Position numbers and translations under genes: made by a program. The notes beneath the pieces are model-generated. The model was not told the DNA's origin. It did no database searches and saw nothing but the letters and a program-made list of their open reading frames with translations. This document shows, piece after piece, positions 3,446 through 51,129 of a stretch of 64,000 nt of DNA (within the stretch, counting starts at the first letter, position 1; the number at the start of each line of letters is the position of its first letter). Source of the DNA: Beroe forskalii (taxonomy: Eukaryota > Ctenophora > Nuda > Beroida > Beroidae); the NCBI GenBank assembly GCA_011033025.1, contig WFMF01000005.1, positions 1,364,001-1,428,000 on the forward strand, written 5' to 3'.

Positions 3446-3859
3446 CATTTGAAAATGAGGCGGCCGTAACTTTCGTCGGTCGATCGAGTGGAGTTGGTCG
3501 ATCGATCGGCTTCATTTGATCGACTGATGTGTTTTAAATGGAAAATATTTGAGCTAGTAGGGAAACAACTAAATAATATACTGTAAAGCCATTAATTTTC
3601 GCGAGGCATTAATTTTCGCGAATTTATTTGGAAAAGAAAATCCGCGAAAATATCAGACGTGAAGTTAATTTATATATTATCTGCGTTTTTCGAGTCCAAT
3701 TCATTTGCCGTTATTCCCTCTTAAGTATTCGATAGATTGGTTTGTCATCAAGGCATTATTTTTCAACCCAAAGTGTCTCCTTAGAAACATTAAGCCCTCA
3801 ACTAAGATCTCAGTATCGTTTACGAATGACATGCTGTAATGTCTGACAGACACACTTAA

Positions 3860-6117
3860 GGGGGGGCACACTTAAATTCAAGTTGACCGGCCCGCTCAGA
3901 TGAGTTCATATGCTCATTCTGCAGCATATAAGGGGTACTTTACCGGAAAATTTTGATTTTTCTCGGACACATTTTTTGGGAATGAGCGGGCAAAGTTGGT
4001 ATACTATTTCACTGTCAAAGTTTGTTAGTCCATAGCTTAATAACCAAACCAGTTTAATGCATGAAAATTTGCATGCATGTAAATCAACATGTCCACTATA
4101 TAAACCCAAAGGTTCGTTTGTCAAATCGCAAAATTGACTGAGTTATGGCCATTCTTGTAAGGGTACCAAATTCTAAGAAAAAGTTTGCTAGCTCCGTCAT
4201 TTTTTGAGCTACAGTGGGATTCTACATATGGAAATGTGTGCCTTTAGGAGCTCTACATGCGTGCCAAAGGGCTAAGCCGGGCATCAGTTATATCTCACAT
4301 AATTATCAAATAAGTGGCAAAATTTAACATTTTTCTGTAATTGTACACAATATTTCATCATCCCACAATGAATAATTTGACACCGAGAACTGAATATACT
4401 TCATTTGATGTAAAATTTCATGCTGTTCAACTTCCCGGAGCCAATTTTGGATTTTCTGCTTTTTATTTCTTGATATAACCATTTTTAAGGCCCCAAAATG
4501 CGTTTTTTTGGCTATTTTTCAGCCTACGAATATCGTAGAGACTTCGTTTTGGGCGCAAACGAATCGCAATCATCGAGTTTATGTGTGACTTGTGAACAAA
4601 CATATACTCTAAATCGCTCAGGAAAAAGTTACGGGCCAAAACTGATTTTGTCGTTTCTGGCTTATAAAGATGAAAAATCGTATCTCAGCCCAGGAAGGTC
4701 GTAGAGACTTCGTTTTGGGCGCAAACGAATCGGAAACATCAAGTTTATTTGTAACTTGTGAATCAACATGTGCTCTAAAATGCTCAGAAAAAAGTTATGG
4801 GCCAAAAACCATTTTATTGACCCAAAATATGGCCCTATCTCGGCCCAGGAGTATCATAGAGACTCGATTTTGGGCTCGAAATATTTCGAGGGGGCATATT
4901 TATATATGACTTGTGAACAAACATATAGCTCAAAACGCTCAGGAAACGAGTTATGGGCCAAAACCTTCAAACCATAATTTTATGAGATGGCAAAAATGAT
5001 CTTACAATAGTTTTTGGCTCATAGCTCGCTTCCTGAGCGTTTTGAGCTATATGTTTGTTCACAAGTCATATATAAATATGCCCCCTCGAAATATTTCGAG
5101 CCCAAAATCGAGTCTCTATGATACTCCTGGGCCGAGATAGGGCCATATTTTGGGTCAATAAAATGGTTTTTGGCCCATAACTTTTTTCTGAGCATTTTAG
5201 AGCACATGTTGATTCACAAGTTACAAATAAACTTGATGTTTCCGATTCGTTTGCGCCCAAAACGAAGTCTCTACGACCTTCCTGGGCTGAGATACGATTT
5301 TTTCATCTTTTATAAGCCAGAAACGACAAAAATCAGTTTTTGGCCCGTAACTTTTTTCCTGAGCGATTTAGAGTATATGTTTGTTCACAAGTCACATATA
5401 AACTCGATGATTTCGATTCGTTTGCGCCCAAAACGAAGTCTCTACGATATTCGTAGGCTGAAAATAGCCAAAAACACGCATTTTGGGCCTTAAAAATGGT
5501 TATATCAAGAAATCAAAAGCAGAAAATCCAAAATTGGCTCCGGAAGTTGAACAGCATGAAATTTTACATCAAATGAAGTATATTAAGTTCTCGGTGGGAA
5601 ATTATTCATTGTGGGATGATGAAATATTGTGTACAATTACAGCAAAATGTTAAATTTTGCCACTTATTTGATAATTATGTGAGATATAACTAATGCCTGG
5701 CTTAGCCCTTTGGCACGCATGTAGAACTCCTAAAGGCACACATTTCCATATGTAGAATCCCACTGTAGCTCAAAAAATGACGGAGCTAGCAAACTTTTTC
5801 TTAGAATTTGGTACCCTTACAAGAATGGCCATAACTCAGTCAATTTTGCGATTTGACAAACGAACCTTTGGGTTTATATAGTGGACATGTTGATTTACAT
5901 GCATGCAAATTTTCATGCATTAAACTGGTTTGGTTATTAAGCTATGGACTAGCAAACTTTGACAGTGAAATAGTATACCAACTTTGCCCGCTCATCCCCA
6001 AAAAATGTGTCCGAGAAAAATCAAAATTTTCCTGTAAAGTACCCCTTATATGCTGCAGAATGAGCATATGAACTCATCTGAGCGGGCCGGTCAACTTGAA
6101 TTTAAGTGTGCCCCCCC
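3860..6117. mobile_element. 2.26-kb near-perfect palindromic element flanked by TTAA (inner level)
   Basis: Two arms of about 1.1 kb (3860-4963 and about 5012-6117) are reverse complements with few differences, around a spacer of about 48 bp. The termini are GGGGGGGCACACTTAAATTC and its mirror, flanked by TTAA at 3856-3859 and 6118-6121. TTAA duplication is the hallmark of piggyBac-type (and Kolobok) transposition, so a TTAA foldback element is likely. Small reading frames in the two arms are mirror copies of each other and not evidence of genes. No transposase is visible. Confidence 0.75.
4520..5465. repeat. Tandem ~160-170 bp units inside each palindrome arm
   Basis: Each arm carries about three diverged units marked by TAGAGACTTCGTTTTGGGC, then CTTGTGAATCAAC or CTTGTGAACAAAC, then GCTCAGGAAAAAGTTA. 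In the left arm they begin near 4525, 4695 and 4850. The right arm holds them in reverse orientation. Confidence 0.7.
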
Positions 6118-6680
6118 TTAAGTAAACCCAGACGAACAAGACACCTCATTAAACCGAGCTTTTGCCTTTATACAATCACCGGCTATCAAGGTGTACAGCA
6201 ATTAGTGAAAATGTTGAATGACCACGTACAAGCACTGGTTTATCTTCAAGGGATATTGAAATGCGTGAAAATTAAAACCGTGAAATTAGTCTGATTTTAA
6301 AGAAACGCGAAAAATAGCACCCGCGAAAATATGTGGCTTTACAGTAATATAATATAACAATTTTACTATCAAGTAACACGATTCATTCTATAAAATTAGC
6401 TAACAAAACTTCATCCTCATGTTGCTCATTTAAACACGATATAAGTCATAAGGGACCAGTAAAACACATTGTTCTTTCAAATGGAGTTGGTCGATCGACC
6501 GGTTCCGTTCGATCGACCGACGAACGTTACGGCCGCCTTATTATATTATTTCTTGTCTTCAGATAATAATTAGAAATTAAAGGCATGTGCAATGTGCATG
6601 CACAATCAAGTGGTTGTGTACAGCATGAGCAAAAGTATTTCACCATGTTACAGTATGTGTTTCACCATGTTATGGTCATA

Positions 6681-6919
6681 AGGCGCCCGTAACGTTCGTG
6701 ATCGGTCGATCGAATGGAATTGGTCGATCGATCAACTCCATTTGAATGAATAATGAGTTTTACATGGTCCCTAATGACTTAAATCGTGTTTAAATGGGCA
6801 ATATTTAGTTGTTTCCCCACTAGCTCAAAGATTTTCTATTTAGAACACATCAGTCGATCAAATAAAGTTGATCGATCGACCAATTCCATTCGATCGACCG
6901 ACGAACGTTACGGGCGCTT
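6681..6919. mobile_element. Intact 239-bp MITE with TA flanks
   Basis: TIRs AGGCGCCCGTAACGTTCG and AAGCGCCCGTAACGTTCG (right end read in reverse complement), with subterminal GGTCGATCGA words. TA lies on both sides (6679-6680, 6920-6921). It is the reference copy for the interrupted one at 3458-6538. Non-coding. Confidence 0.75.
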
Positions 6920-7139
6920 TATGTTTCATTGAAAGTTTAAGTGGAACAAAACAAAGAATTGTTACAAATTGGCATGGCATGGCATCATATTGTAATTAGG
7001 TTATGAGGTTTACAAGGTCACAAGGTTTATGAGGTTTTACTTTTTACAAGACCAAGGTTTACAAGGTTTAAAAATAAATAACCAACAACAAAATATTATA
7101 TCAACAGAGCGTTACCCTAACTAGTCATAGGTTCGTAGG

Positions 7140-8640: not shown

Positions 8641-8908
8641 TTATAATCAGTGCTATGCGAGAGCTTTCTATTACGCTACTACTGTTAAATGAATTGTGCT
8701 GTAGTTTTTGAAAATTAGACGTTTTCTTTACTTCAAATCTAAGATCTCAAGAGTCAAGGTGGAGAAAGGACATAACTTGAATAACGGAGGATATTTCAAA
8801 TGAATTGTTTTCTGTGGCAGAGTTTGGCAGATAATCAATGCTGAGTCGGTGATAACAATAGTAGCTATAGTTTCGAAATTAGCCGTTTAGTTCACTAAAG
8901 TGTAAAAT

Positions 8909-11367
8909 GGCTATATACTGGGTGAACTGCAGTTCATATGAAGTCGTCGCGCACTTCATATGAATTCATATGAATTCATATGAGTTCATATGAATGCGTT
9001 TACCAGTTCAATAAATTTTTATATGAATGAACTTCATATGAACTTCACATGAATTCATATGAACTTCATATGAACTCCACCAAGTTCATATGAACTTCAT
9101 ATGAATTCATATGAATTCATTAAACACGGATGAACTAGTTCACCAAAATTTAGTGAACTGAGATGCATATGAATTCATATGAATGAACTAGTTCATTCAT
9201 ATGAACTGCGTTGAACTGGAGTTCACCTGAATTCATTGAACTGCGTTGAACTGCGTTGAACTACGTTGAACTGCGTTGAACTGCGTTGAACTGCGTTGAA
9301 CTGGAGTTCACCTGAGTTCATTTGAGTTCACCTGAGTTCATGTCACTCAATGGGAATAACATATGTTATTTTGGAAAACTTAGCTTTGCAACAGAATAGA
9401 CCTAAACGACTGTATGTAACTGTTAGTGTTACCCTAACCTCCACTGCGAGCACTTATTTTACGCAACACGTCCTTCCAAATTTCCAATTCCATTAGCTCA
9501 TTAGGAATGAGAAAATAATAATGTAGATAGAAATGTTATCTGACAGCGGAGGTAGTCAATGACTTGACTCAATGACTGGACTTCATGACTTGACTCGACT
9601 CGACGACTCGACTCGACGACTCGACTTCGACGACGCGACTTCGACGACTTCGACTTTGACGACTGACTCGATGACTCGACTCGGCGACTCTTGACGACCT
9701 GACTCCCACGACTCGACTCACGACTCGCTCGGCGACTTCGACCTTTGACATTTATTTGTTTTTTTACCGCGACCCCCACGACTTTGCGATCGATTCACGA
9801 CCCACACTCGACTCAACATTTGACTGACTTCGGCGACTCGACGACATTGCGACATTGACTGGCACTTCGACTTGACTCCACTCGACTCGGCTTAAATTTG
9901 ATTCGACTTTGACTCGACTCATTGACCGATCACTCGCGAAAAAGACTCGACGAATCGCGACTTTAAGGCCCATCGACGACTCCAGCTCCGCGACTCAGCG
10001 CGAAAGTCGGTCGTGCGTCAGTCCCCGGTCGAAGTCGAGTGAAATCAGTCTGGAGTCGAAAATTAGTAGTCGAGTAGTCAGTCGGCGAATGTCGAAGAAA
10101 AAGGGCGAAAGGGTCAAAGGGGTCGGAGTCAGTCAGTAGTCGGTGAGTCTCGAGTGATCAAATTGAGTCGATGAAAGAAGTAGCGGGGAAGTCGAAAGTC
10201 GGTGATTAGATCGAGGAGTCGTCGAGTCGTCGTCGAATCGTTGAGACGAGTCGTCGAGGTCGAGTCGTTGAGACGAGTCGTCGAGACAAGTCAGAGAGTC
10301 GTCAAATCAAATTAGAGTTGAGGCATCGAGTCGATTTGAGTCATCGAGTCACTGAGTGGTGGTAAGTGACTAGAGTTAATTCATGACTTTAAGTGAAATT
10401 TTTAGTTGTCACGTGACTTTACATAACAAGAGTACGAAAAAATCGTTTATGGAAGAGCTCCAAGACTTGAGTCTGATTTAACTATTTGATTTTGGAAGCC
10501 CTTTTAGTGAAATGGATCAAGATGCAGCTAATTTGGTGAAGTTTAACAGCCTCTTTAAAATTGAAAAAAGCCTTTCAATAGGTGACGTCACTCAGCAGTC
10601 AGTCAACCGGAATGAGAGACTTATCGGGCATAGATCAGAGCAGCAACGCCAAGAGGGCCCCATGGTAGCGCCAGTCGCGCCCACATCGACGCCAGGGCAG
10701 TGCCATGGTGTAAGCCACGAGGCCTTCACGACGAAGCCATGAAGACGCCATGGCTTCACAGTGGCACTGCCATGACTGCCATGATGTCACCGTGGCGCCC
10801 TTGTGGCTTCATCGTTGCCCAGTAGTGGCGTCCTCGTGGCTTCACCATGGCACTGCCCTGGCGTCACGCGGCACTGCGGTGCCGCTCTCGTATGCCGCTG
10901 ATCCATGTTTTGATCCATGCCCGAAATATCTGTTAAGTTATCATTTTGACCTTCTAGATGAACTTCGAGATGAATTCGTTGAACTCCGTTGAACTGCGTT
11001 GAACTCCGTTGAACTGCGTTGAACTCCGTTGAACTGGAGTCCGCGAGATGAACTTCCTAGTTCATATGAATTCAAAATAGAACTGGAATGCATATGAGTT
11101 CATATGAGTTCATATGCATCTCAGTTCACTAAATTTTGGTGAACTAGTTCATCCGTGTTTAATGAATTCATATGAATTCATAAGTTCATATGAACTTGGT
11201 GGAGTTCATATGAAGTTCATATGAATTCATATGAAGTTCATATGAAGTTCATTCATATAAAATTTATTGAACTGGTAAGCATTCAAATGAACTCATATGA
11301 ATTCATATGAATTCATATGAAGTGCGCGGCGACTTCATATGAACTGCAGTTCACCCAGTATATAGCC
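8909..11367. mobile_element. 2.46-kb long-TIR DNA element with exact 8-bp TSD (E1)
   Basis: TGTAAAAT flanks both ends (8901-8908 and 11368-11375). The ends are GGCTATATACTGGGTGAA and its exact reverse complement. Inverted repeats run near-identically for about 270 bp and continue as shared words for another ~150 bp. They are made almost wholly of TTCATATGAA/GAATTCATATG words, then tandem GTTGAACTGC decamers. The interior holds GACTCGACTC arrays and a GCCATGG/GGCTTCAC word-rich stretch (10660-10880). No transposase frame is present. An 8-bp TSD with GG termini is compatible with Merlin-type elements, but hAT or MULE affinity is not excluded. Confidence 0.8.
9541..10350. repeat. CGACT-word array with polarity switch, inside E1
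   Basis: Degenerate GACTCGACGACTCGACT repeats read on the plus strand to about 9975. After a centre near 9985-10010 the same word appears in reverse complement (GAGTCGTCGAGTCGTCG) to about 10350. The Ser/Arg-rich frames here are translations of the repeat. Confidence 0.75.
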
Positions 11368-11375
11368 TGTAAAAT

Positions 11376-13224: not shown

Positions 13225-13662
13225 TGTGTTTGTGTTTTTAGATAAGGTGCTTGTACATCAGTGATCAGCTGTGCCATATTGAGCTTCAATCTGAATCTAA
13301 ATATTGTAGAATAACTTAAAATTTATAATACTTACATGTTTGACTGCTAACTTGCACTTTTATTCTACCTAGATATGATTGATCATTGCAGTGAAACATA
13401 GAAATCTCAATGTAATACAATTACTTATGATGAAAGCACAGGTGAATCAACTTAGATAATGTAAATCAATTTAACCTAAGTAATCACAATAATGCAAGTC
13501 TAATTTTACTTTTTTGCAATGTTGCATTGTTTCCTAGACCTGTCTTTGTAACAAATATGATTCAAGCAGTATAAGTTTAATGGTCTAACTATTATAACTG
13601 TATATAATGAACATAATCACATAGAACGAGGATAATAATGTTACAAATATTTCAATAGCTTG

Positions 13663-14580
13663 ATGACTGAAAAAAAGGTGAATAGATTTGTACATGCTGT
13701 GTCTTATTCCAAAGAGTTCTTTATTGGTGGCTTAGCTACATCAACTGCTTGTTTATTTTCAAATCCACTTGATGTGGTGAAAACAAGATTCCAGCTGCAA
13801 GGAGAACTCCAGAGTAGAGGTGCTTATGACATCAAATACAAGAACATATTTGATGCTTTTCTAAAAATTGCTCATCATGAAGGCATCACAGGTTTGCAAA
13901 AAGGTCTGGTTCCTGCCCTAGCCTTTCAAATTGTGATGAACAGTACACGACTTGGGATATATCAAACCATTATTAATTCAGGGATCACTAAAAATGAAGA
14001 TGGTGGAGAATCATTTCCAAGGCTCTTAATGGCAGGGGCATTCTCGGGGTGTTGTGGAGCTTTTGTTGGCACTCCATTCTATCTTGTAAAAGTTCAAATG
14101 CAATCAGCAGCAAATCCATCAATTGCAGTTGGATATCAACACAAGCACTCTGGACTTATAGCTGGTCTTAGAGCTGCTCACAAATCTCAAGGAGGGTTGT
14201 TCCAAGGTCTATCAAGTGCTCTCGCTAGAACTACTGTTGGCTCTGCTACTCAACTTGCAACATTCACTTCTTTCAAGCAAATCATAGGAAAATCAGGTTT
14301 GATCAAATCAGACTTTGGTATTGTTTGTGCATCTAGCATGTGTAGCAGTGTTGCAGTTACATGCACAATGACCCCATTTGATGTAGTGGCAACAAGAATG
14401 TTCAACCAGAAACATGGCCTATACTATGATGGTTGGTGGGATTGTATTTGTAAAATCTTCAAGCATGAGGGAGTTTATGGGTTTTACAAAGGGACATTTG
14501 CTCACTTTTTCCGTATTGGCCCACATACAATATTAACTCTCACAATTTGGGATCAATACAGAAAATGGTTCCTGAAATGA
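13663..14580 (+). CDS. SLC25A35: Mitochondrial solute carrier, SLC25A34/SLC25A35 type
   Basis: An intronless 305-residue frame from ATG 13663; an in-frame TAA at 13636 rules out upstream extension. Carriers of this family have three ~100-residue repeats, each with two membrane helices, and exchange solutes across the inner mitochondrial membrane. The three signature motifs are present: NPLDVVKTRFQLQGEL (about residues 34-49), TPFYLVKVQMQ in repeat 2 and TPFDVVATR in repeat 3. The lysine is replaced in repeat 3, as is usual in the SLC25A34/35 branch. YDGWWDCICK, YGFYKGTFAHFFRIGPHT and the C-terminal IWDQYRKWF also match that branch. Length is close to the ~300 residues usual for the family. 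The transported substrate is not established. An intact single exon may be the native structure or an old retrocopy. No perfect AATAAA follows closely. Confidence 0.9.
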   Translation: MTEKKVNRFVHAVSYSKEFFIGGLATSTACLFSNPLDVVKTRFQLQGELQSRGAYDIKYKNIFDAFLKIAHHEGITGLQKGLVPALAFQIVMNSTRLGIYQTIINSGITKNEDGGESFPRLLMAGAFSGCCGAFVGTPFYLVKVQMQSAANPSIAVGYQHKHSGLIAGLRAAHKSQGGLFQGLSSALARTTVGSATQLATFTSFKQIIGKSGLIKSDFGIVCASSMCSSVAVTCTMTPFDVVATRMFNQKHGLYYDGWWDCICKIFKHEGVYGFYKGTFAHFFRIGPHTILTLTIWDQYRKWFLK

Positions 14581-18950: not shown

Positions 18951-19178
18951 AAGTTACTATCAGTTCCATTTCTCAATCTTATTTTCACCGAGTATGCGAC
19001 TTTTTACCCCCCCGACTTTTTATCCCCCGACTTTTTACCACCCTAAGTATCATGTGCGACTTTTTACCCCCCGTCTTTTTATCCCCATAGGTATAGAAAT
19101 GGAAAGTGTTTTGTAAAGTTCAACCATAAATCAATAATGTATAATATAATGTATAATCTGCTATTCAAATCAAACAAA

Positions 19179-19443
19179 TTACATATAATTATAAGCAATT
19201 CCACGGAGAAGTCTGTCAGCTTGAGGAAGGGTGTACTCCGAGACCAGCTTCTGGATCCGTTCGTTCCTCTTCTTCTCTCTGGCAGAGTGGGTGAAGGAAG
19301 TTCCTCTCTGGATGTCGTTGATGGTGGCTGCCGTGTGTGTCTGCTGCTTCTCCAAGGAGAGGGGTGGAGTGGAGTGGAGGTGGTCCATTGAGGATAGAGT
19401 TGGCTGCTACTACGTGTTGGAACGTCTGTTGAAAGGTGTTCAT
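19179..19443 (-). pseudogene. Captured coding-like fragment inside E3
   Basis: A GC-rich, codon-biased minus-strand segment encodes ...TAATINDIQRGTSFTHSARE and then QKLVSEYTLPQADRLLRG, with an overlapping open frame beginning MNTFQQTFQHVVAANSI, so one frameshift is likely. Composition differs sharply from the surrounding element. It may be exon material picked up by the transposon, as Pack-MULEs do. Parent gene not recognised. Confidence 0.35.
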
Positions 19444-19911
19444 CGTGATAGCTGGATAACTACTGCCCTCAGAGGACGCATTATATATGGTTCCTGCATA
19501 TGCTTACCCCACTCCTTACCCCACCTTCCCTTTGACTCCTGTTCACCCCCTCTACCCCCTTCTCAGTTAGAGCACGGTGATTCAGGCTTTTCATCAGCTT
19601 TTTTCACTCACAGCCCACACCTTGTTATCCAGGGCCATATTTTAATCTGATCACATGCTCAACTTATCACCGCATCACCTACTCAGCAACCATTAACATG
19701 CTTTTGAGTATGTATGATTTGAATAACAATGCATTTGTTACAAATTATATTTGAAATTCCTTGAAATTCCTATGCTAAACGAGCTTTGAAACCAGTGATG
19801 CATCTCGTTAAGTGGTCATGATGTGACCCAAAGCTATATGAGTACCATGATACAACGTTATATGAGTATCATGATCCGATCCTTGGTACCTGACACCATT
19901 GCTCGAACGGG

Positions 19912-20590
19912 ATAGCATCACGTGAGTTCCTCCTCGAAATGTGATCCAGGGGTAAAGGTCGCAGTTCTACGGTTAGGTACGACTGTTTATCCCCATCGAA
20001 GCTTGAACGGGGATAAAGGTCGCAGCTGTGCTATTGTCTGCGACCTTTATCCCCTGCTTCAAACCGAGCTCATTTTCAATGGGGATAAAAAGTCGCAGTC
20101 TATGGCAGAAGTGCGCCTTTTTATCCCCCTCAGAATACAGTACAGATCAAAGGCAAAGCAGGGGGTAAAAGGTCGCACCTGTACCCTAGGGTGGTAAAAG
20201 GTCGGGGGATAAAAAGTCGGGGGGTAAAAAGTCGCATCACCTTCATAGCATCACGTGAGTTCCTCCTCGAAATGTGATCCAGGGGGGGTAAAAGGTCGCA
20301 GTTCTACGGTTAGGTACGACTGTTTATCCCCATCGAAGCTTGAACGGGGATAAAAGGTCGCAGCTGTGCTGTTGTCTGCGACCTTTTATCCCCCTGCTTC
20401 AAACCGAGCTCATTTTCAATGGGGGATAAAAAGTCGCAGTCTATGGCAGAACTGCAGAAGTGCGCCTTTTTATCCCCCTCAGAATACAGTACAGATCAAA
20501 GGCAAAGCAGGGGGTAAAAGGTCGCACCTGTACCCTAGGGTGGTAAAAGGTCGGGGGATAAAAAGTCGGGGGGTAAAAAGTCGCATCACC
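19912..20590. repeat. Tandem duplication of ~333 bp within E3
   Basis: 19912-20244 and 20245-20590 are two copies of one unit starting ATAGCATCACGTGAGTTCC. Each copy contains mirrored GGGGATAAAAAGTCGCA and TGCGACCTTTTATCCCC words and the tail GGGGGATAAAAAGTCG. Confidence 0.8.
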
Positions 20591-23860: not shown

Positions 23861-24673
23861 TCAGGTTTTTAAGGATATCGGTTGTCTGTTTTTTTTGATT
23901 CGTGCTACTATAACGAGAGTATCTAAGTATGTACGTACGTTTTGGTACGTTTTGGTGAGTTTGACTGGGCTTATAATACCCATGTTTGAACTGTGGTTCT
24001 GTTTAGGTGAAAACTGTTTCTTTCCATTACCACCCGACCTGTTGTAGTTGGGTGTAAATGGCTTACGACCAACCGAATTAACACTGCTGTTCGGATGCAT
24101 CACAGAATTGGACTGACTAGCCTGTTCTTTCAAAACGGCTTTCTGATACACTTGGTCCAATGTCGTAGTTTCATTGCAGTCTGACAATAAAGCCGTTCTG
24201 ATCTTTTCAGATTTCAGACCACCAATAAACTTGTTTTTCACCATCATCGTATACAAAGCTCCAAACCCACAGTTAACTGCTGCTTCCCTTATACGTCCCA
24301 TGAATACAGCAAGTGTTTCATTGTCCTCTTGTTTGATCAAGCTGAATCTGTACTGTTCAGAAACTGCATTTGGTGCAGGTGCAAGTTTCGATTTCAGAAT
24401 TTCCAATAGCTGAGCAAATGTTTTCGTTGTTGGTAAGTCTGGCGCACAGTATGACTTCAATAGTTTGTAAGCATTGCTTCCTAAGCTGGAAAGAAGGTAG
24501 CTTTTCTTGATTTCTTCAATCTTAGCCGTTTTCTCTGCTTCTTCTTCTGGTAGATTTGAGGCAGCATTAAAGATGGCTATAGTAACCATCTGTTCCAGTC
24601 TCTCGATCCAATTAGAAACAATACTTGGATCGTCACTGTTTATCGTGAGTTCTTCAATATTAAACGTCGCCAT
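23861..24673 (-). pseudogene. Ty3-like retrotransposon gag fragment
   Basis: Minus-strand frame from ATG 24673 (MATFNIEELTINSDD) with the retrotransposon gag pattern: SNWIERLEQMV near the start, TFAQLLEILKSKLAP, then YRFSLIKQEDNETLAVFMGR and FIGGLKSEKIRTALLSD, the hydrophobic spacing of the Ty3/Gypsy capsid-like domain. It breaks off in a basic linker where the nucleic-acid-binding zinc knuckle would come. The last residues (below 23934) read into the flanking module. No protease, polymerase or LTR is attached. Confidence 0.8.
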
Positions 24674-26015
24674 TGCTTTATTGCTCAGCTTGGATTGAGT
24701 ACAGCGTAAAACAACGGGTTGATAAAGAGGAATAAAATTGCACACTAGGTTAATCCAATCTCAAAATACACCAGGCAGGGACCGCTAACACTAGGAAAAT
24801 ATACTGGTTAGTAACATGATAAATCATAAATATTCAGGTTAAATATAATCAAATAAAATCAATAATATGAATACAAAGCACAGGACATCTGCGTCGTGCG
24901 CGTCTCCTTCCAGCTCAGCAATGAGTTGTTGTTCACAGCAGTGTACCCCGGAACAGGAGGTGTATCCGGGAACTGCTCAAGGAACATGCCCAAACCGATC
25001 TTGAAGCTTTCAAGTGAACTCAGTCGTGAGACGTCAGATGGCAAGATGTTCCATAGCTGAGCTGCTCTAACACCAAATGAACTATCGTAATTACTACGTA
25101 TAGAAAGCTGGGCCTTGGTGTTTATCTGTGGGATGAGTGCCTTAATCCCAAAGCCGAGGATGGTGCTTGAATTGCATCTCAACATCATTAGGGGCATGGC
25201 CGTTGGCGATTTTCCAAACTTGGATGATGCAGTATCTTTCTCTTCGCCGTTGGAGAGACATCATATTGAGCTTCCTGAGAGTGAGACGGTCCCAATAGCT
25301 CATGTCTTTGAGTCCAGCTATCTTACGGATGAAGCATCGTTGGACATTGTCTAACTTTTGGATGTCTGAGATCTTGGTAGGGTTCCAGACAGGACAGCAG
25401 TATTCCAGTCTGGAGCGCACCATTGATTTGTAGAGTGTCAGCATGACTACTGAACGATCACTGAACACTGAGGACCCAAGATGCCATTTTACGAGCCGCC
25501 TGTACAGTCTGTTCTATGTGCGGCGACCAGGATCTGTCACTTGAAACAAGAACCCCTAAGTCCCTGGCAGTGTCTGTCAGTTCTATGACATGTCCTTTAG
25601 GAGTTTTGTACTGGATATTCTCAGGATAAAATGGTAGTTGTCTTAAGAGGTAGGAGCTATTGAGGGGATAGCTGAGTAGTTGAAACTTGTCTTCATGGAG
25701 TTCCATGTTATTGATTGAGGACCAGTTAATCACTCTATACAGGTCGTCCTGTATACGTGCAGTGCATTCTTTACCGAGGACTTTCGATATTAGTTTAGTG
25801 TCATCGGCAAAACATAGCCCTTTACAGTTTTGAGGGTAGGGAGGAGGTCATTTATGTACAGGAGGAACAGTATAGGTCTAACACTGTTCCTTGTGGTACC
25901 CCCACTGATCACAGGCTGTGATGATGACAAGACACCTTCCACTTGGACAGTTTGGGTGCGGTTTGTGAGGAATGCTTCAATCCAGTGAAGGACTTTACCA
26001 CCAATTCCATAACGC
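23934..26015. mobile_element. Gag plus LINE composite insertion flanked by ATGTA
   Basis: Compared with the sister module near 23115, which reads GTATCTAAGTATGTATGAAA uninterrupted, this copy has 2.08 kb inserted between ATGTA (23929-23933) and ATGTA (26016-26020). The contents are the gag fragment followed by the LINE fragment, both minus strand. Confidence 0.55.
24795..26015 (-). pseudogene. 5'-truncated CR1/L2-like LINE, reverse transcriptase C-terminal half
   Basis: Frameshifted minus-strand pieces carry, in order: YGIGGKVLHWIEAFLTNRTQ, LFLLYINDLLPTL, the catalytic FADDTK box (antisense of 25795-25812), VINWSSINNMELHEDKFQLL, LVSSDRSWSPHI, then MLTLYKSMVRSRLEYCCPVW and WDRLTLRKLNMMSLQRRRER. 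These are the palm, thumb and C-terminal blocks of non-LTR reverse transcriptases. The GGPQG block before LFLLYINDL is damaged. At least three frameshifts make it dead. A presumed 3' UTR lies at about 24795-24858. Confidence 0.85.
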
Positions 26016-26133
26016 ATGTATGACGGGGAGAGAGGAGGGAGGGGCAGGGGAAACCGGAACATGGGTGGAAGTGTTGAATTTGATCCTTGTTTCATTCGCC
26101 CCAAACTTAATCCCCTCATAGCATTCCTTTCAG

Positions 26134-26238
26134 GAGAAGATGGGACCGAGGCTGAAAAGATGAATTCAGGAGACTTGGGAGTCCCCTTAGAATCTTCCGC
26201 TGTCGCATTTGTCTCGGAGACAGAATTCCAAATACAAG
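26134..26238 (+). pseudogene. D-type exon, copy 2 (open)
   Basis: 105 nt, acceptor TTTCAG, donor CAAG|GTAGGT. Reads GEDGTEAEKMNSGDLGVP and LESSAVAFVSETEFQIQ without a stop. The next candidate exon (26368-26441, GAACTCGGCTCTCTTGTG...) has good borders but does not continue in phase, so the transcript unit is probably decayed. Confidence 0.45.
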
Positions 26239-26599
26239 GTAGGTTATTTTGGACTTATTTTATATCGTTGGGCTCCAGGATTCATGATTGAATTTTAGAG
26301 TTTGATATGTTAAACTTTCAGTTTTCACTACCCCGTATCAATAACTCAATAACACTTCCCCTCTTAGGAACTCGGCTCTCTTGTGAAAAGTAGAAAGAGA
26401 CCGAGGCTGAAGATGACCCATCAACAGCCACGAAACTTGCTGTGAGTATCATAATTTTATTGATTTGATGTAATTGTTTCTTTTGAAATTACAAAAGTTT
26501 CTAAATATCATTGAGCAAGTCATTTTAACTTTTTAAGTTATTACCAGAGTTTGCAATTAATTCCTAAAGAAGCTAACAATTAATTTCTCAGGCTCTCAG

Positions 26600-32975: not shown

Positions 32976-33352
32976 CGACTAACGGGGGTCTGAATAACGG
33001 GGGTCTGAATAACTTGGGGGTCCGAATGACGGGGGGTCCGAATAGCAGGGGTCCGAATAACGGGGGTCCGAATAACAGGGGTCCGAATAACGGGGGCCCG
33101 AATGACAGGGGTCGAATGACGGGGGTCTGAATAACGGGGTCCGAATAACGGGGGGTCCGAATAAAGGGGCCCCGAATAACGGGGGTCCGAATAACGGGGG
33201 TCGAACGGGGGTCCGAATAACGGGGTCCAAATAACGGAGGTCCAAATAACGGGGTCCGAATAACGGGGGTCCGAATGACGGGGGTCCAAATAACGGGGAT
33301 CCAAATAACGGGGGGTCCGAACAGCAGGGGGTCCGAATAACGGGGTCCGAAT
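32976..33352. repeat. 15-bp minisatellite AATAACGGGGGTCCG in U1
   Basis: About 25 degenerate units. The long minus-strand frames rich in RTPVIRTP and GPPLFGPP are translations of the repeat. Confidence 0.95.
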
Positions 33353-33368
33353 ACATCTGTCAAGATAT

Positions 33369-37469: not shown

Positions 37470-38135
37470 CTAGTCGGAGTCTTCTGCAGCGTTATGGTCA
37501 ATGTAATCCAAACCAGCCGTAGCATTACTGCTCTTTCTGAGGTCTCTGAGCAGAGCGCCGCACTGCGGGTCACGTGACAAGTCCTGGGGGGTTTTGCCGT
37601 CCTTGTTCCTCACGTCCGTCTTGGCTCCAGCACTCAGCAGGAGCGAGACACACTCCGGTCTGCACTTCCACGCTGCCTGGTGGAGGGGCGTGTCCCCCAG
37701 CTTGTTCTGCACGTTGATCAGCACGTTGCTCTGGGACAGGAGAACCTCCAGACAATCCTCGAACCCTCCAGCTGCTGCCCAGTGGATGGGGGTGCAGCCC
37801 GCGTTGTCCAGCCCGTTCACAGACACGTTGTTAGCGATGCACTCCTGGAGGAAGCCCACGTTTCCCCGCTTAGCAGCCTCATGAAGCGGGTTCTCCACCG
37901 TCTCCGTGCTCTCGTCCACGTAATTAGCAGGTATCAGCCCGCTGGAGCCCCTCTCAGGGTGCCCCACTCTCGCCAGGAACCAGCCCACTTCCGGCTCTGA
38001 GAGGATGTAGAGCGTGTCTCCCTCTCCGAAGCTGACCTCGTCATGTCGAGTGGCGGTGTACGGGTAGAGCGCTTTCACCACCCTCATGATGGCGTTAGGC
38101 TTCTTGGGCGGAGGGGGCGCAGGTCGAGGGGGCAT
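37470..38135 (-). CDS. OSTF1: Osteoclast-stimulating factor 1 (SH3 plus ankyrin repeats)
   Basis: A single open 221-residue frame from ATG 38135 to the stop at 37470; the human protein is about 214 residues. Domain order matches the family: a proline-rich N terminus (MPPRPAPPPPKK), an SH3 domain (about residues 18-75; ALYPY 22-26, GLIPANYV 66-73), then ankyrin repeats (NPLHEAAKRG, CTPIHWAAAGG, GDTPLHQAAW, DGKTPQDL) and an acidic tail ending AEDSD. OSTF1 is a small cytosolic adaptor that binds partners through its SH3 domain. The usual SH3 Trp-Trp is Trp-Phe here (GWFLAR). The coding region is GC-rich and intronless, unlike its AT-rich surroundings and unlike the many-exon vertebrate genes. 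An acceptor-like CCCTCTGTAG lies three bases before the ATG, so a 5' UTR intron is likely. Confidence 0.93.
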   Translation of the reverse strand: MPPRPAPPPPKKPNAIMRVVKALYPYTATRHDEVSFGEGDTLYILSEPEVGWFLARVGHPERGSSGLIPANYVDESTETVENPLHEAAKRGNVGFLQECIANNVSVNGLDNAGCTPIHWAAAGGFEDCLEVLLSQSNVLINVQNKLGDTPLHQAAWKCRPECVSLLLSAGAKTDVRNKDGKTPQDLSRDPQCGALLRDLRKSSNATAGLDYIDHNAAEDSD

Positions 38136-38955
38136 TCTCTACAGAGGGACAGGGGTTAGACTGTTAGGAGGCACTACTCACTAACACTAGACTACAGAGG
38201 GACAGGGGTTAGAGACTCATTGGAGGGCACTTCTCATAGTCTACAGAGGGACAGGGGTTAGAGAGCTAGAGGCACTACTCACTTACACTAGTCTACAGAG
38301 GGACAGGGAATAGAGACTCATTGAAGGGCACTACTTATAGTCTACAGAGGGACATGCTAGGGGTTAGAGATTCGTTGGAGGGCACTACTCACTTATAACT
38401 AGTCTACTGGTGGGCAAGGGTTAGACTGTAAGAGAGTTAGGGGACGCTACTCACTAACACTACTACACTAGTCTACAGAGGGACAGGGGTTAGACTGTTA
38501 GAGAATTAGGGGGCACTACTTAATAACACTTGTCTACAGAAGGGACAGGGATTAGACAAATAGGAGGGCACTACTCACTAACACTAGTCTACTGAGGGGT
38601 CGGAGTTAGAGAGTTAGGGGGCACTACTCACTAACACTAGACTACAGAGGGAGAGGGGTTAGAGACTCAGTGGAGGGCACTACTCATAGTCTACAAGGGG
38701 ACAGGGGTTAGAGTGTTAGAGAGTTAGGAGGCACTACTCACTTACACTAGTCTACAGAGGGACAGGGGTTAGAGACTCATTGGAGGGCACTTCTCATAGT
38801 CTACAGAGGGACAGGGGTTAGAGAGCTAGAGGCACTACTCACTAACACTAGTCTACTGATGGGCAGTGGTTAGACTGTTGGAGAGTTAGAGGGCACTACT
38901 CACTAACGCTTGTCTACAGAGGGATAGGGGTTAGACTCATTGGAGGGCAGTATGC
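38136..38955 (-). repeat. Tandem 47-63 bp repeats, each with acceptor-like and donor-like motifs, upstream of OSTF1
   Basis: About 15 units marked by CTACAGAGGGACAGGGGTTAG (20-base core CTACAGAGGGACAGGGGTTA) on the plus strand. Read with the gene, most units contain AACCCCTGTCCCTCTGTAG, a strong 3' splice site. Many also contain TTAGTGAGTAG, a consensus 5' splice site, about 10 nt after the AG. The array abuts the OSTF1 start codon. Confidence 0.85.
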
Positions 38956-41149: not shown

Positions 41150-42697
41150 TCATGATAATTGGGAGCAAATTTAAAACGATGAGATCTCAAGAACGGGAAA
41201 TGGTAGAGCCATGATCGAGGTCAGGTTTTGTTGATCTAAGATGGGAAAATGTTATAGGCTATAAGAGAAGTTCTGGTGACGTCATTTTCACGTCATTATG
41301 ACGTCATCAACTTAGCGAAATTTTATTGCTTTTTTAGCGGAAATAGGCTAATTTCGAGCGCATTTTTCACCAAGAAGGAAAGGAGATAGCGGTCTGATTT
41401 TTCGGAACAATTTTTAGCAAATTTAAAGAGCTTTCAGAAAATCATACGGATTATTGGGCTATCTCGATTTTTCATCGAGATATACGCGATTTTCTAAGGT
41501 GCGGTGAAAAATCGATGTCGAAATTTTAGGGCAAAACTTTAATGAGTGAGATGTCAAGAACTACGACTTATCTTGAGATGAGATCGGCCAAAGTATGTTT
41601 TACTAAGGCGGAATTTCTTATAGGCTATATGGGAAGATGGTTTGAGCCTATTTGGGTGCTGTGATGACGTCATCAAAATCGCGTAAAACCACTAAAATAG
41701 CGTATTTTGCGATAGAACGCTATTTTGCGCTACTTTGGACATCTCTAACTCAAATAGTTTTCATCGGATTATGTTTACTTTGATATGCTGCTTTTAAGAC
41801 CTTAAGATTTAGCTATAAAACGAGTTTCAGGGCGATCGGTCGAAGATTGTTGTCGTGGGAGGCTTCTAAAAATTGAACTGCAAATTGATTGAAATTACGT
41901 TTATGACGAAAAATTGTACTGTAATCCTATTCTGTGATACGATGGTCTACTGATAATGGTTTCTCCATGTCTTGCAGTGAATAGGGATCGGAAATATACG
42001 ATGAACTAGTGGAGCACGTGAGTTGACGCGGACGTTTTGTAGAAATTAGGGGATTTAAAGAAATTGATATTTACACGGGATTTTCGACTTGATTACGTTG
42101 AAATGAGTTTAAATACGACTAATGCACGTGAAATTAGATCTAGTTGCCATATTTCAGCACGTGAGTACACACGGACGTTTTGTAGAAATTAGGGGATTTG
42201 AAGAAATTTATGTTTACATGGGATTTTCGACTTGATTATGTTGAAATGAGTTTAAATACGACTAACGGGGGTCTGAATAACGGGGGTCCGAATGACGGGG
42301 GTCCGAATGACGGGGGTCCGAATAACGGGGGTCCGAATAACAGGGGTCCACATAACGGGGGCCCGAATGATGGGAGTCCGAATAACGGGGTCCGAATAAC
42401 GGGGTCCGAATAACGGGGGTCCGAATAACGGGGATCCGAATAACGGGGGTCCGAATAAAGGGGGTCCGAATAACGGGGGTCCGAATAACGGGGGTCCGAA
42501 TAACGGGGGTCCGAGTAACATGGGTTTAAACTACATACATCTGTCAAGATATCACCACCAAAACCGTTGGACGGTTGGTCTAGTAACCCCCGCGGGTTTG
42601 GATGTGACAACGGAACCTGAAAAGAGACAAAATGGGCTGATCACATCCAAACCAGCGGGGGGTTACTAGACTAACCGTCCAACGGTTTTGGTGGTGT
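41150..42697. mobile_element. Terminal-hairpin repeat unit U3
   Basis: Homologous to U1 throughout: TCATGATAATTGGGAGC start, GACGTCATTTTCACGTC, GCACGTGAG subrepeats, 15-bp GGGGGTCCGAATAAC minisatellite (42262-42525) and terminal hairpin (42552-42697). Confidence 0.75.
42262..42525. repeat. 15-bp minisatellite in U3
   Basis: About 17 units of AATAACGGGGGTCCG. The open frames here are artefacts of the repeat. Confidence 0.95.
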
Positions 42698-48749: not shown

Positions 48750-49324
48750 GCCTTACTGGCATATTCCACGATTTTTGCAAGTACACCTGAATTCGCCGCG
48801 AATTCGCCGCGAATTCAAGTGAATTCAGGTGAATTCAGGTGAATTCGCGGCGGAGTTCGCCAAAAAATTTTTGTGGACTCCGCCCGGACTCTGAGTCCGC
48901 CGGCGAACTCCGGCGAACTCACTTGAATTCACCTGAATTCGCCGCGAATACACAGCGTATTCGGTGTACCCTAGTTCGCCAATTTTCCAGTTCACCCAGG
49001 TGAACTGCCAGTTCATGACGAATTCGCGGCGAACTAGTTCGCCTACAATTCAGATGCCGGAGTCGCTGAGTTACGCCGGAGTCCGCCTGAGTTCGCCGGA
49101 GGGGAAACTTGTAAAAGCCCAAATCAGTACGAATTTAACAAATTGGCGATCGGCGATGAAGGAAAATTGCGTTATTGCAATTGCAAAGGCTCTTCTTTTA
49201 CAGGTGTTTTGGTCGGCACTTTGCTCTAACCAGATCCCGATTGCAAAGTCAACATGAGGCGGACTCACAGGTCGGGGGACTCTAGGTCAGGGGGACTCTG
49301 GGTCGGCAGTGGCACACCAGGGTG

Positions 49325-49410
49325 GACTCTGGGTCGGGGGATCCCTCAGGGTAAACTCTGGGTCGGGAGCCTCTTCACTTTATATAAACTACCTAAAGCC
49401 GGGATCGATT
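49325..49410 (+). pseudogene. Decayed reverse-transcriptase scrap inside E2
   Basis: One frame reads GIPQGKLWVGSLFTLY, and a +1 frame continues with YINYL. Spacing equals the GxPQG...LLFxLYINDL block of LINE reverse transcriptases. No neighbouring RT blocks, so a remnant captured by the element. Confidence 0.35.
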
Positions 49411-50179
49411 TATGCCGAGAATCTCTCGGTTAATCCAGATAACAGAGCCCGTATGGAGGTACAATCATGCGATCCGATGTATCATTGTGGGAGACACTGG
49501 GGGACTCACGATACACGGTGTCAGCATGTGATCCGCCACATCACAATTTACACTATCCCATACCGCTTGTTGGCTCATGTCATGGGAGGGGGATACGTGA
49601 TACGGGGGCGTTCATGCGAGCACAACCCCATGCTAATTCGTCGGGATATGCGTCCCACTTAAGGTAACGAGGTCTGTGAAGTCTGCAAACCCTTGACACG
49701 ACAGATGGGAGACAAGCTTGGAGGTGGATCAAGCGGAGCTGGCAGCTGCTAGTGTCCTGAACCTCATACCCACTCTGCAGACACCCTCCCCTGCAGACTG
49801 CGGACCCTCAGACAAGCTGATATGCTCCTCCTTTGACAACGCTCGGTGATCATCCGGGCTACCAGTGACAACCTCACGATCCTAGCAGAAAACTCCTGCT
49901 GGTTCCTCGATGAACCTTCAAGTCCTAACCCCAGATCCTTGTCATCCATGCGGAGCTCTCATCCCTCACAGAAGACAGATCCTGGTGCCTCCCCACGGTC
50001 TGCATTCTCCTAACCCACAAGGACTTAGCCATTTAAGCCTATATCGCCGATACTGGTTTTTGTCCTCAGCGAATCAGCGATGTCCTTAGTCGTCAGGGGT
50101 CAAGGCAACACCTGACAATGACGTCACAGATCTTGATGTCAATTTTTTCCTAGTGTCCTAATCAAAACCCTAACCCTAA

Positions 50180-50667
50180 GGGCAGGTCACATATTATGTC
50201 ATCACTTTTTTGCCCATTTTCAGCCTCCCCCTGTCTGTCATCACTTGTCATCATTGGCTGACCCCTCCCCATGATGACGTCAGCATTGACAAACCCCTCC
50301 TTTTTCAAAACAAATTTTGACTATTTCGAATCAAAACAACCGACATGAAATATCAACTATGTACGTGTGGTGTGATTCATATCGTTAAATTCGTTAAAAA
50401 TTAAAAAAAAATGGTTTAATTGTCATAGACGAACATCCAGTTAGTTTGGAAATATAGATATCATATCAAAGAAATGAAATGGGTACATCAAAACAAAATA
50501 TTGTGAACGAAAAAGTTTGGATATCGTATTTTCGAATTTAGAAAATTCAATATTTTCGCTGACGTCGGCAAACCTTAAACCCCTCCCTCCCCCCCTGTCA
50601 TCACCTGTCAGCATTTGAAAACCCCCCTCCCCGTCGAAAGTGATGACGTAATATGTGACGGCTCCCC
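50180..50667. mobile_element. 488-bp MITE nested in E2, TAA-flanked
   Basis: GGGCAGGTCACATATTATG at the left end and GGGGAGCCGTCACATATTAC (right end, reverse complement) continue into GTCATCAC. TAA occurs at both borders (50177-50179 and 50668-50670). A 3-bp TAA duplication with GGG ends suggests a PIF/Harbinger-type MITE. Non-coding. Confidence 0.55.
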
Positions 50668-51129
50668 TAAGGTTCTTTGGATCCCATGACGACGCATATG
50701 GTAGACATTGAATTGCATCTTAGTCTCACATAAGCGTGCCAGGCGTGACAAAGTTCCTTCAAAGTTCAGGTGAATTAAGCCGCAAACTGAGTTCACCTGA
50801 GTTCGCCCAAGTTCGCCCAAGTTCACCTGAGTTCGCTGGGTGGCGGACATCAGTTCAAGACACCCGGCTAACTTGTTCGCCTGGGTGAACTGGAAAATTG
50901 GCGAACTAGTACACCGAATACGGCGATGTATTCATGTGGCGAATTCAGGTGAATTCAGGTGAATTCGCCAGAGTCCGCGGCGAACTCCGGCGGACTCCGG
51001 CGGAGTCCGCCAAAAATTTTTTTAGCGAACTCGAATTCACCTGAATTCACCTGAATTCACTTAAATTCGCGGCGAATTCGCGGCGAATTCAGGTGTACTT
51101 GCAAAAATCGTGGATTATGCCGCCTTACT

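Follow-up and report, generated by a model that had tools for sequence, protein, structure and literature searches.

The 64,000-nucleotide window analyzed here, from the ctenophore Beroe forskalii (GenBank assembly GCA_011033025.1, contig WFMF01000005.1, positions 1,364,001 to 1,428,000 of the forward strand), contains an element, E1, that begins and ends with identical tips, GGCTATATACTGGG, and is flanked by 8-bp duplications (TSDs) of the sequence TGTAAAAT (Table 1). Both the TSD and the symmetric tips are exact, and the proposal of the initial annotation that E1 is a single transposed unit is borne out. A second element of the same design lies further along the window. Scanning the window with Rfam models and for tRNAs gave no match.

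Table 1. Features of E1 and of the second element, in window coordinates
Feature	Position	Strand	Description
E1 element	8909..11367	+	2459 bp; non-autonomous DNA transposon; 41 more copies read
8-bp TSD TGTAAAAT, left copy	8901..8908	+	read from the sequence
A (left) inverted arm	8909..9183	+	14-bp tip followed by palindromic words TGAACTGCAGTTCA, TTCATATGAA, TGAATTCA, GAACTAGTTC at a pitch of 10, 11 or 21 bp
A-side decamer array TTGAACTGCG	9236..9303	+	unit number differs among copies
A-side interior without word structure	9345..9555	+	40 best genome matches, each over most of the query (249 bases, 9344-9592)
Inner satellite, GACTCGAC-type words	9556..10340	+	halves in opposite orientation
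B-side interior without tandem structure	10382..10657	+	40 best genome matches
GCCATGG/GGCGTC-rich block, short inverted words	10660..10920	+	by eye
B-side decamer array CGTTGAACTC/G	10977..11036	+	oriented as the A-side array on the + strand
B (right) inverted arm	11099..11367	-	near-identical to the A arm
8-bp TSD TGTAAAAT, right copy	11368..11375	+	read from the sequence
Second element, same design	48758..51121	+	2364 bp; tip GGCATA(A/T)TCCACG; arms of GAATTCGCCGC/GAATTCAGGT words at a 10-11-bp pitch
TSD GCCTTACT of second element	48750-48757 and 51122-51129		read from the sequence

The inverted part of E1 extends for approximately 275 bp at each end, not for the 0.4 kb initially assigned to it. 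In a consensus of 36 copies, the arm is composed of the tip, TGAACTGCAGTTCATATGAA, and then almost exclusively TTCATATGAA, TGAATTCA, and GAACTAGTTC dyads. Within the first 232 bp of E1, 61% of positions fall in perfect palindromes of at least 8 bp, as do 59% of those in the other arm, versus 6-7% in dinucleotide shuffles, none of 300 of which reached the 61% value. The dominant lag of E1 is 10; in a 200-bp cut of the A arm, a lag of 52 ranks first and a lag of 10 second. Both decamer arrays run in the same direction on the + strand and therefore lie outside the inverted repeat, giving E1 a polarity with an A end and a B end. The earlier description of the ends as words followed by decamers thus holds for the TTCATATGAA words and for the existence of the decamer arrays, but the decamers are direct rather than inverted.

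In the host genome (G000; 216,145,372 bases, or 216 Mb, in 1134 contigs), the 14-bp tip of E1 has 177 exact occurrences, 86 and 90 with T as the next base and one with another base. Neighboring tips facing head-to-head (+/-) at a distance of at most 9 kb form 48 pairs, 42 of which were read. Exact 8-bp TSDs flank 37 of these 42 copies, and 8-bp TSDs with one mismatch flank three more (L010, L061, and L070); L022 has a TSD of 7 bp, and in L074 a TSD is absent. The TSD sequences differ among copies, which indicates independent insertions. Both ends of every one of the 42 copies carry GGC, the tip having itself been the basis for choosing them; because only exact tips were used, old copies are under-sampled. 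The paired copies range from 209 to 8002 bp in length, the shortest (L004) being nearly arm against arm. The genome search for ends and TSDs that had been suggested at the outset thus finds E1 to be one copy of a genuine, recently mobile DNA transposon family with no transposase gene that is clearly its own.

Comparison of the copies separates a near-constant outer region from a variable inner one. The outer arm, measured between the tip and an internal landmark, is exactly 232 bp long in 44 of the 77 measurable arms (seven of 84 were unmeasurable and left out) and 226-235 bp long in 74, the other three being 10-12 bp shorter. A 10-bp ladder of lengths accommodates 18 of the 25 A decamer arrays measured (rungs at 47, 57, 67, 77, 87) and 31 of the 36 B arrays (rungs at 49, 59, 69, 79), with 17 A and six B arrays unmeasurable; the words of the inner satellite cover between 0 and 4098 bp among the 42 copies. 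The alignment of copies for word number therefore yields two answers: the inner arrays vary mostly by whole units, in the decamers largely single ones, and the outer array hardly at all, so that the growth of the transposon by reiterating words applies to its inside and not to its ends. In the 36 copies left after removal of six with cut-short arms, A and B arms differ by approximately 2.6%, at 0.0256 within the same element and 0.0260 between different elements, and 19% of permutations gave within-element values as low. Only two of 262 consensus positions tell an A arm from a B arm. The family is therefore young, and the arms of one copy are not homogenized; hairpin repair as a process making the two arms alike left no signal in this comparison and was discarded.

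Matches to the transposases of Merlin (at least 35 by the Pfam model PF12762 and at least 125 by protein), MULE (at least 46), and hAT (at least 23) were compared with 176 E1 tips. A clearly native transposase is absent from the 42 E1 copies read, and the autonomous partner anticipated by the initial annotation was not found among these copies or the listed transposase matches. Between paired E1 ends, the matches listed include one Merlin (L060) and one MULE fragment (L010). The L060 Merlin has inverted arms of its own, 162 nt long, on either side and was rejected as a gene of E1. The L010 fragment is the only one of 46 listed MULE (PF10551) matches inside a paired E1 element, where it lies beside Merlin pieces, and MULE was set aside as the E1 partner on this count. 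The 23 listed hAT matches are all more than 12 kb from any listed E1 end. Searches of E1-locus DNA with tblastn recovered Merlin pieces in L010, L078, and L001. In L001, which has one E1 end and no exact partner for it, the match (454 bp, E 3e-31) is to the C-terminal half of a decayed Merlin with a broken frame, and by eye the gene ends approximately 75 bp from the E1 satellite with no arm between. Its position would suit a native gene; it could be an insertion instead. Among the E1 interior matches considered (the best 40 of 91 and the best 40 of 141), none is less than 10 kb from a listed Merlin, the nearest distance found being 10.0 kb, in one case.

The Merlin ORFs of this genome give Pfam matches down to 9e-20 (DDE_Tnp_IS1595). 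In five aligned Merlin proteins, D156, D219, and E256 are invariant, as are the cysteines C46, C49, C58, and C71 of the N-terminal part, which might form a predicted zinc-binding, DNA-reading domain; Pfam returned no significant zinc family for these proteins. The DNA upstream of the transposase, or on both sides of it, was read at nine Merlin loci (the nested unit of L060 and L080-L087). Short-word arrays are present in six of them, with a lag of 11 in L060, L082, L083, and L086 and of 21 in L080 and L081, and these six arrays span four tip families. Three loci depart from this pattern: L087 has 15-bp words, L085 has no array, and L084 has only a longer duplication. Both inverted arms are seen at L083 and L060, where a search for TSDs by eye found none. 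The tips at the Merlin loci are GGCAGTCTGG, GGCAGTATCC, GGCAGTGTCC, and GGTAACTCGG, and facing GGCAGTRTCCAAG tips bracket four Merlin matches (C171:120483-123218, C171:115742-117659, C263:69513-71458, and C172:55939-57372). In this local comparison, which is not a published criterion, E1 and the Merlin ORF loci have no tip or word sequence in common and share only GG(C) and the pitch. Palindromes were rejected as a general rule, since half of the Merlin arrays (L082, L083, and L086) have zero palindrome coverage. Many Merlin remnants (such as C384:2681-3154, C392:586237-586710, and C555:87726-88199) correspond to the same C-terminal half, query residues 159-321, at approximately 61% identity and contain two TAA stops, a pattern suggestive of a separate family, present in many copies, that carries half a transposase.

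Inverted arms were found in the fetched DNA at 20 of 30 MULE loci examined. A lag of 15, 16, or 30 ranks first at all ten MULE loci with arms longer than 50 nt; the lags of L034, L044, and L045 are weak, with z below 4, and a MULE-locus array in L052 has a lag of 40 first and 20 second. One MULE (L041:311-2884) has unequal 7-bp tips, GGGGAAC and GGGTATA, and 118-nt arms of 15-bp words, and by eye it is flanked on both sides by the 8-bp TSD TGACACAC. Since this MULE also has an 8-bp TSD, TSD length cannot separate Merlin from MULE here. The median repetition score is 0.14 for MULE flanks versus 0.32-0.55 in eight of nine Merlin flanks; the score alone was abandoned as a means of separating them, because the distributions overlap (the MULE 90th percentile is 0.39), and pitch was used instead. 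The control was a set of 40 word-rich stretches from the MULE loci and from elsewhere in the window, with E1, the second element, and the Merlins excluded; a dominant lag reaches a z of at least 4 in 29 of them, and in none of these 29 is it 10, 11, or 20-22. With E1 and the second element counted on the Merlin side, the contrast in pitch has p 0.0004, a value to be read in light of the contrast having been noticed in the data rather than predicted, and in few families. Restricted to families with Merlin or MULE ORFs, some of which may be related, the contrast is four of five versus none of eight (p ~0.007). The odds appear even that word pitch is a superfamily signature in two unrelated superfamilies, approximately 11 or 21 bp (one or two helical turns) in Merlin and 15-16 bp in MULE, the words themselves being family-specific.

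The second window element has a dominant lag of 11; like E1, it combines a 10-11-bp pitch with symmetric GGC tips, as the Merlins do, and its tips occur 95 and 91 times genome-wide with at most two mismatches. Its interior at approximately 49260-50035 resembles a piece of the L041-type MULE, including the 15-bp words of that MULE. At approximately 19002-20579, inverted 15-bp words, CGACTTTTTACCCCC, resemble the arms of the MULE locus L044, and a 349-bp tandem duplication occupies 19912-20590. The claim that at least four other elements in the window share the E1 design is thus verified for 48758-51121, whereas the stretch near 19002-20579 has words of MULE-like length. Two arrays of a further 15-bp word, CGAATAACGGGGGTC, at 32976-33353 and 42259-42519, are each followed by 143-bp repeats and may represent a MULE-type element present twice. 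Elsewhere in the window are nested inverted repeats at 3452-6925 (up to 601 nt at 97%), several minisatellites, open frames at 13639-14580 and 37470-38138 that by eye are mitochondrial carrier-like and SH3-ankyrin-like, and open frames at 23861-26254 that by eye look like pieces of a retroelement gag and reverse transcriptase.

The TU elements of sea urchins are Foldback elements with 8-bp TSDs and short tandem words in their ends; these words, at 15 bp, are nearer to those of the local MULE arms than to those of E1. E1 itself has the structure of the Foldback class, with long inverted ends (TIRs) containing short words and with tandem decamers outside the inverted part. Long word-built ends are already known in the Foldback-like Galileo, Tetris, and Tm1, as described in passages of PMC4079207, PMC3688188, and PMC3169594. 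Similar to E1, Galileo and Tetris of Drosophila have long, internally repetitive TIRs; they differ in that Galileo belongs to the P superfamily (PMC4079207, PMC3688188) and the Tetris repeats are approximately 220 bp long (PMC4079207). Tm1, a Mutator/Foldback element of root-knot nematodes, resembles E1 in its ends of many short words and its mostly non-autonomous copies. The passages of PMC3169594 give Tm1 a 9-bp TSD, unequal 7-bp tips, and 13-15-bp words of variable number, in contrast to the 8-bp TSD, identical tips, 10-11-bp words, and near-fixed outer array of E1; the MULE of L041 is close to this Tm1 design. For Merlin (IS1595/IS1016-related), passages of PMC8101967 give 5'-GG tips, TIRs of 24-462 bp, and TSDs of 8 or 9 bp and note that some elements contain tandem repeats internally; helically pitched word TIRs do not appear in those passages. 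The suggestion that the E1 design may be undescribed therefore fails for word-built ends as such and persists for Merlin-type ends with words at a helical pitch, none of which was found in the open-licence literature searched.

The reading that we favor, with a probability of roughly 0.6, is that E1 is a non-autonomous cut-and-paste transposon, most likely of Merlin type, that is mobilized by a transposase from elsewhere, with the words as putative binding sites. E1 has 5'-GG tips, an 8-bp TSD that is exact in 37 of 42 copies, and TIRs of approximately 275 bp, within the Merlin range, and the word arrays of the local Merlins share its pitch; no transposase that is clearly native was found in the 42 E1 copies, and the filing of E1 under Merlin is provisional, given the 8-bp TSD of the L041 MULE and the absence by eye of a TSD at the Merlin units of L083 and L060. 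It is unlikely, though worth weighing, that E1 is instead a MULE (Mutator-type) Foldback element whose words are Tm1-like sub-terminal repeats and which a MULE transposase moves. MULE (Mutator) TSDs are 8-11 bp long, mostly 9 bp. In favor of this reading, MULEs with word-built inverted arms are present in the genome, L041 combines GG tips with an 8-bp TSD, the E1 copy L010 holds a MULE fragment, the second window element carries an L041-type piece, and passages of PMC4079207 assign most Foldback elements to Mutator. Against a MULE origin, the MULE arms here are built of 15-16-bp words and those of E1 of 10-11-bp words, the L041 tips are unequal and Tm1-like where those of E1 are identical, and the single one of the 46 listed MULE matches between paired E1 ends adjoins Merlin pieces.

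It is also doubtful, slightly more so than a MULE origin, that the words are a side effect of slippage during replication, or of repair driven by hairpins, with no role in transposition. Many parts of the window are word-rich (18 of its 90 tiles of 700 bp score at least 0.4), the decamer arrays and satellite vary in length among copies, and one E1 arm folded alone as DNA folds strongly (z -11.9); the outer array is nevertheless near-constant in 74 of 77 measurable arms, and arms of the same element are no closer than those of different elements, which leaves no trace of hairpin-driven conversion. Word pitch, moreover, goes with superfamily. Together with the word-built ends known in Galileo, Tetris, and Tm1, this speaks against the one shared slippage process raised in the initial annotation as an alternative to a family; what remains of that pair is a genome-wide family with a design common to other elements. 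Membership of E1 in hAT, P, or some other superfamily that makes 8-bp TSDs would account for its TSD, and the genome has at least 23 hAT matches; given the distance of the listed hAT matches from listed E1 ends and tips that we take to be unlike those of hAT or P, this is very improbable.

For a Merlin-type E1, the word-built ends are probably a multi-site docking array for transposase, as predicted from their pitch. The arm words would serve as transposase sites spaced by one or two helical turns and hence lie on one face of the DNA. Several transposase units could bind side by side, raising affinity and marking the true ends, and the bound array might help the two arms pair ahead of cleavage at the GGC tips. 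Among systems in which binding has been tested, Galileo comes closest: its THAP domains bind several sites in the repetitive TIRs (PMC3688188). We propose that the words are family-specific because binding specificity drifts and that the pitch is kept because it reflects the packing of neighboring transposase units. The inner decamers and satellite would form a less constrained zone that grows and shrinks by unequal repair.

If pitch is indeed a superfamily signature, it would be a readable trace of transposase packing along DNA and could be used to classify transposons that lack genes. If the docking array is right, thousands of bases of apparent minisatellite in genomes like this one would be transposon ends made of ordered transposase sites, and the arrays would form a natural series in which to study the assembly of transposases on long ends, a problem to which Galileo has already drawn attention.
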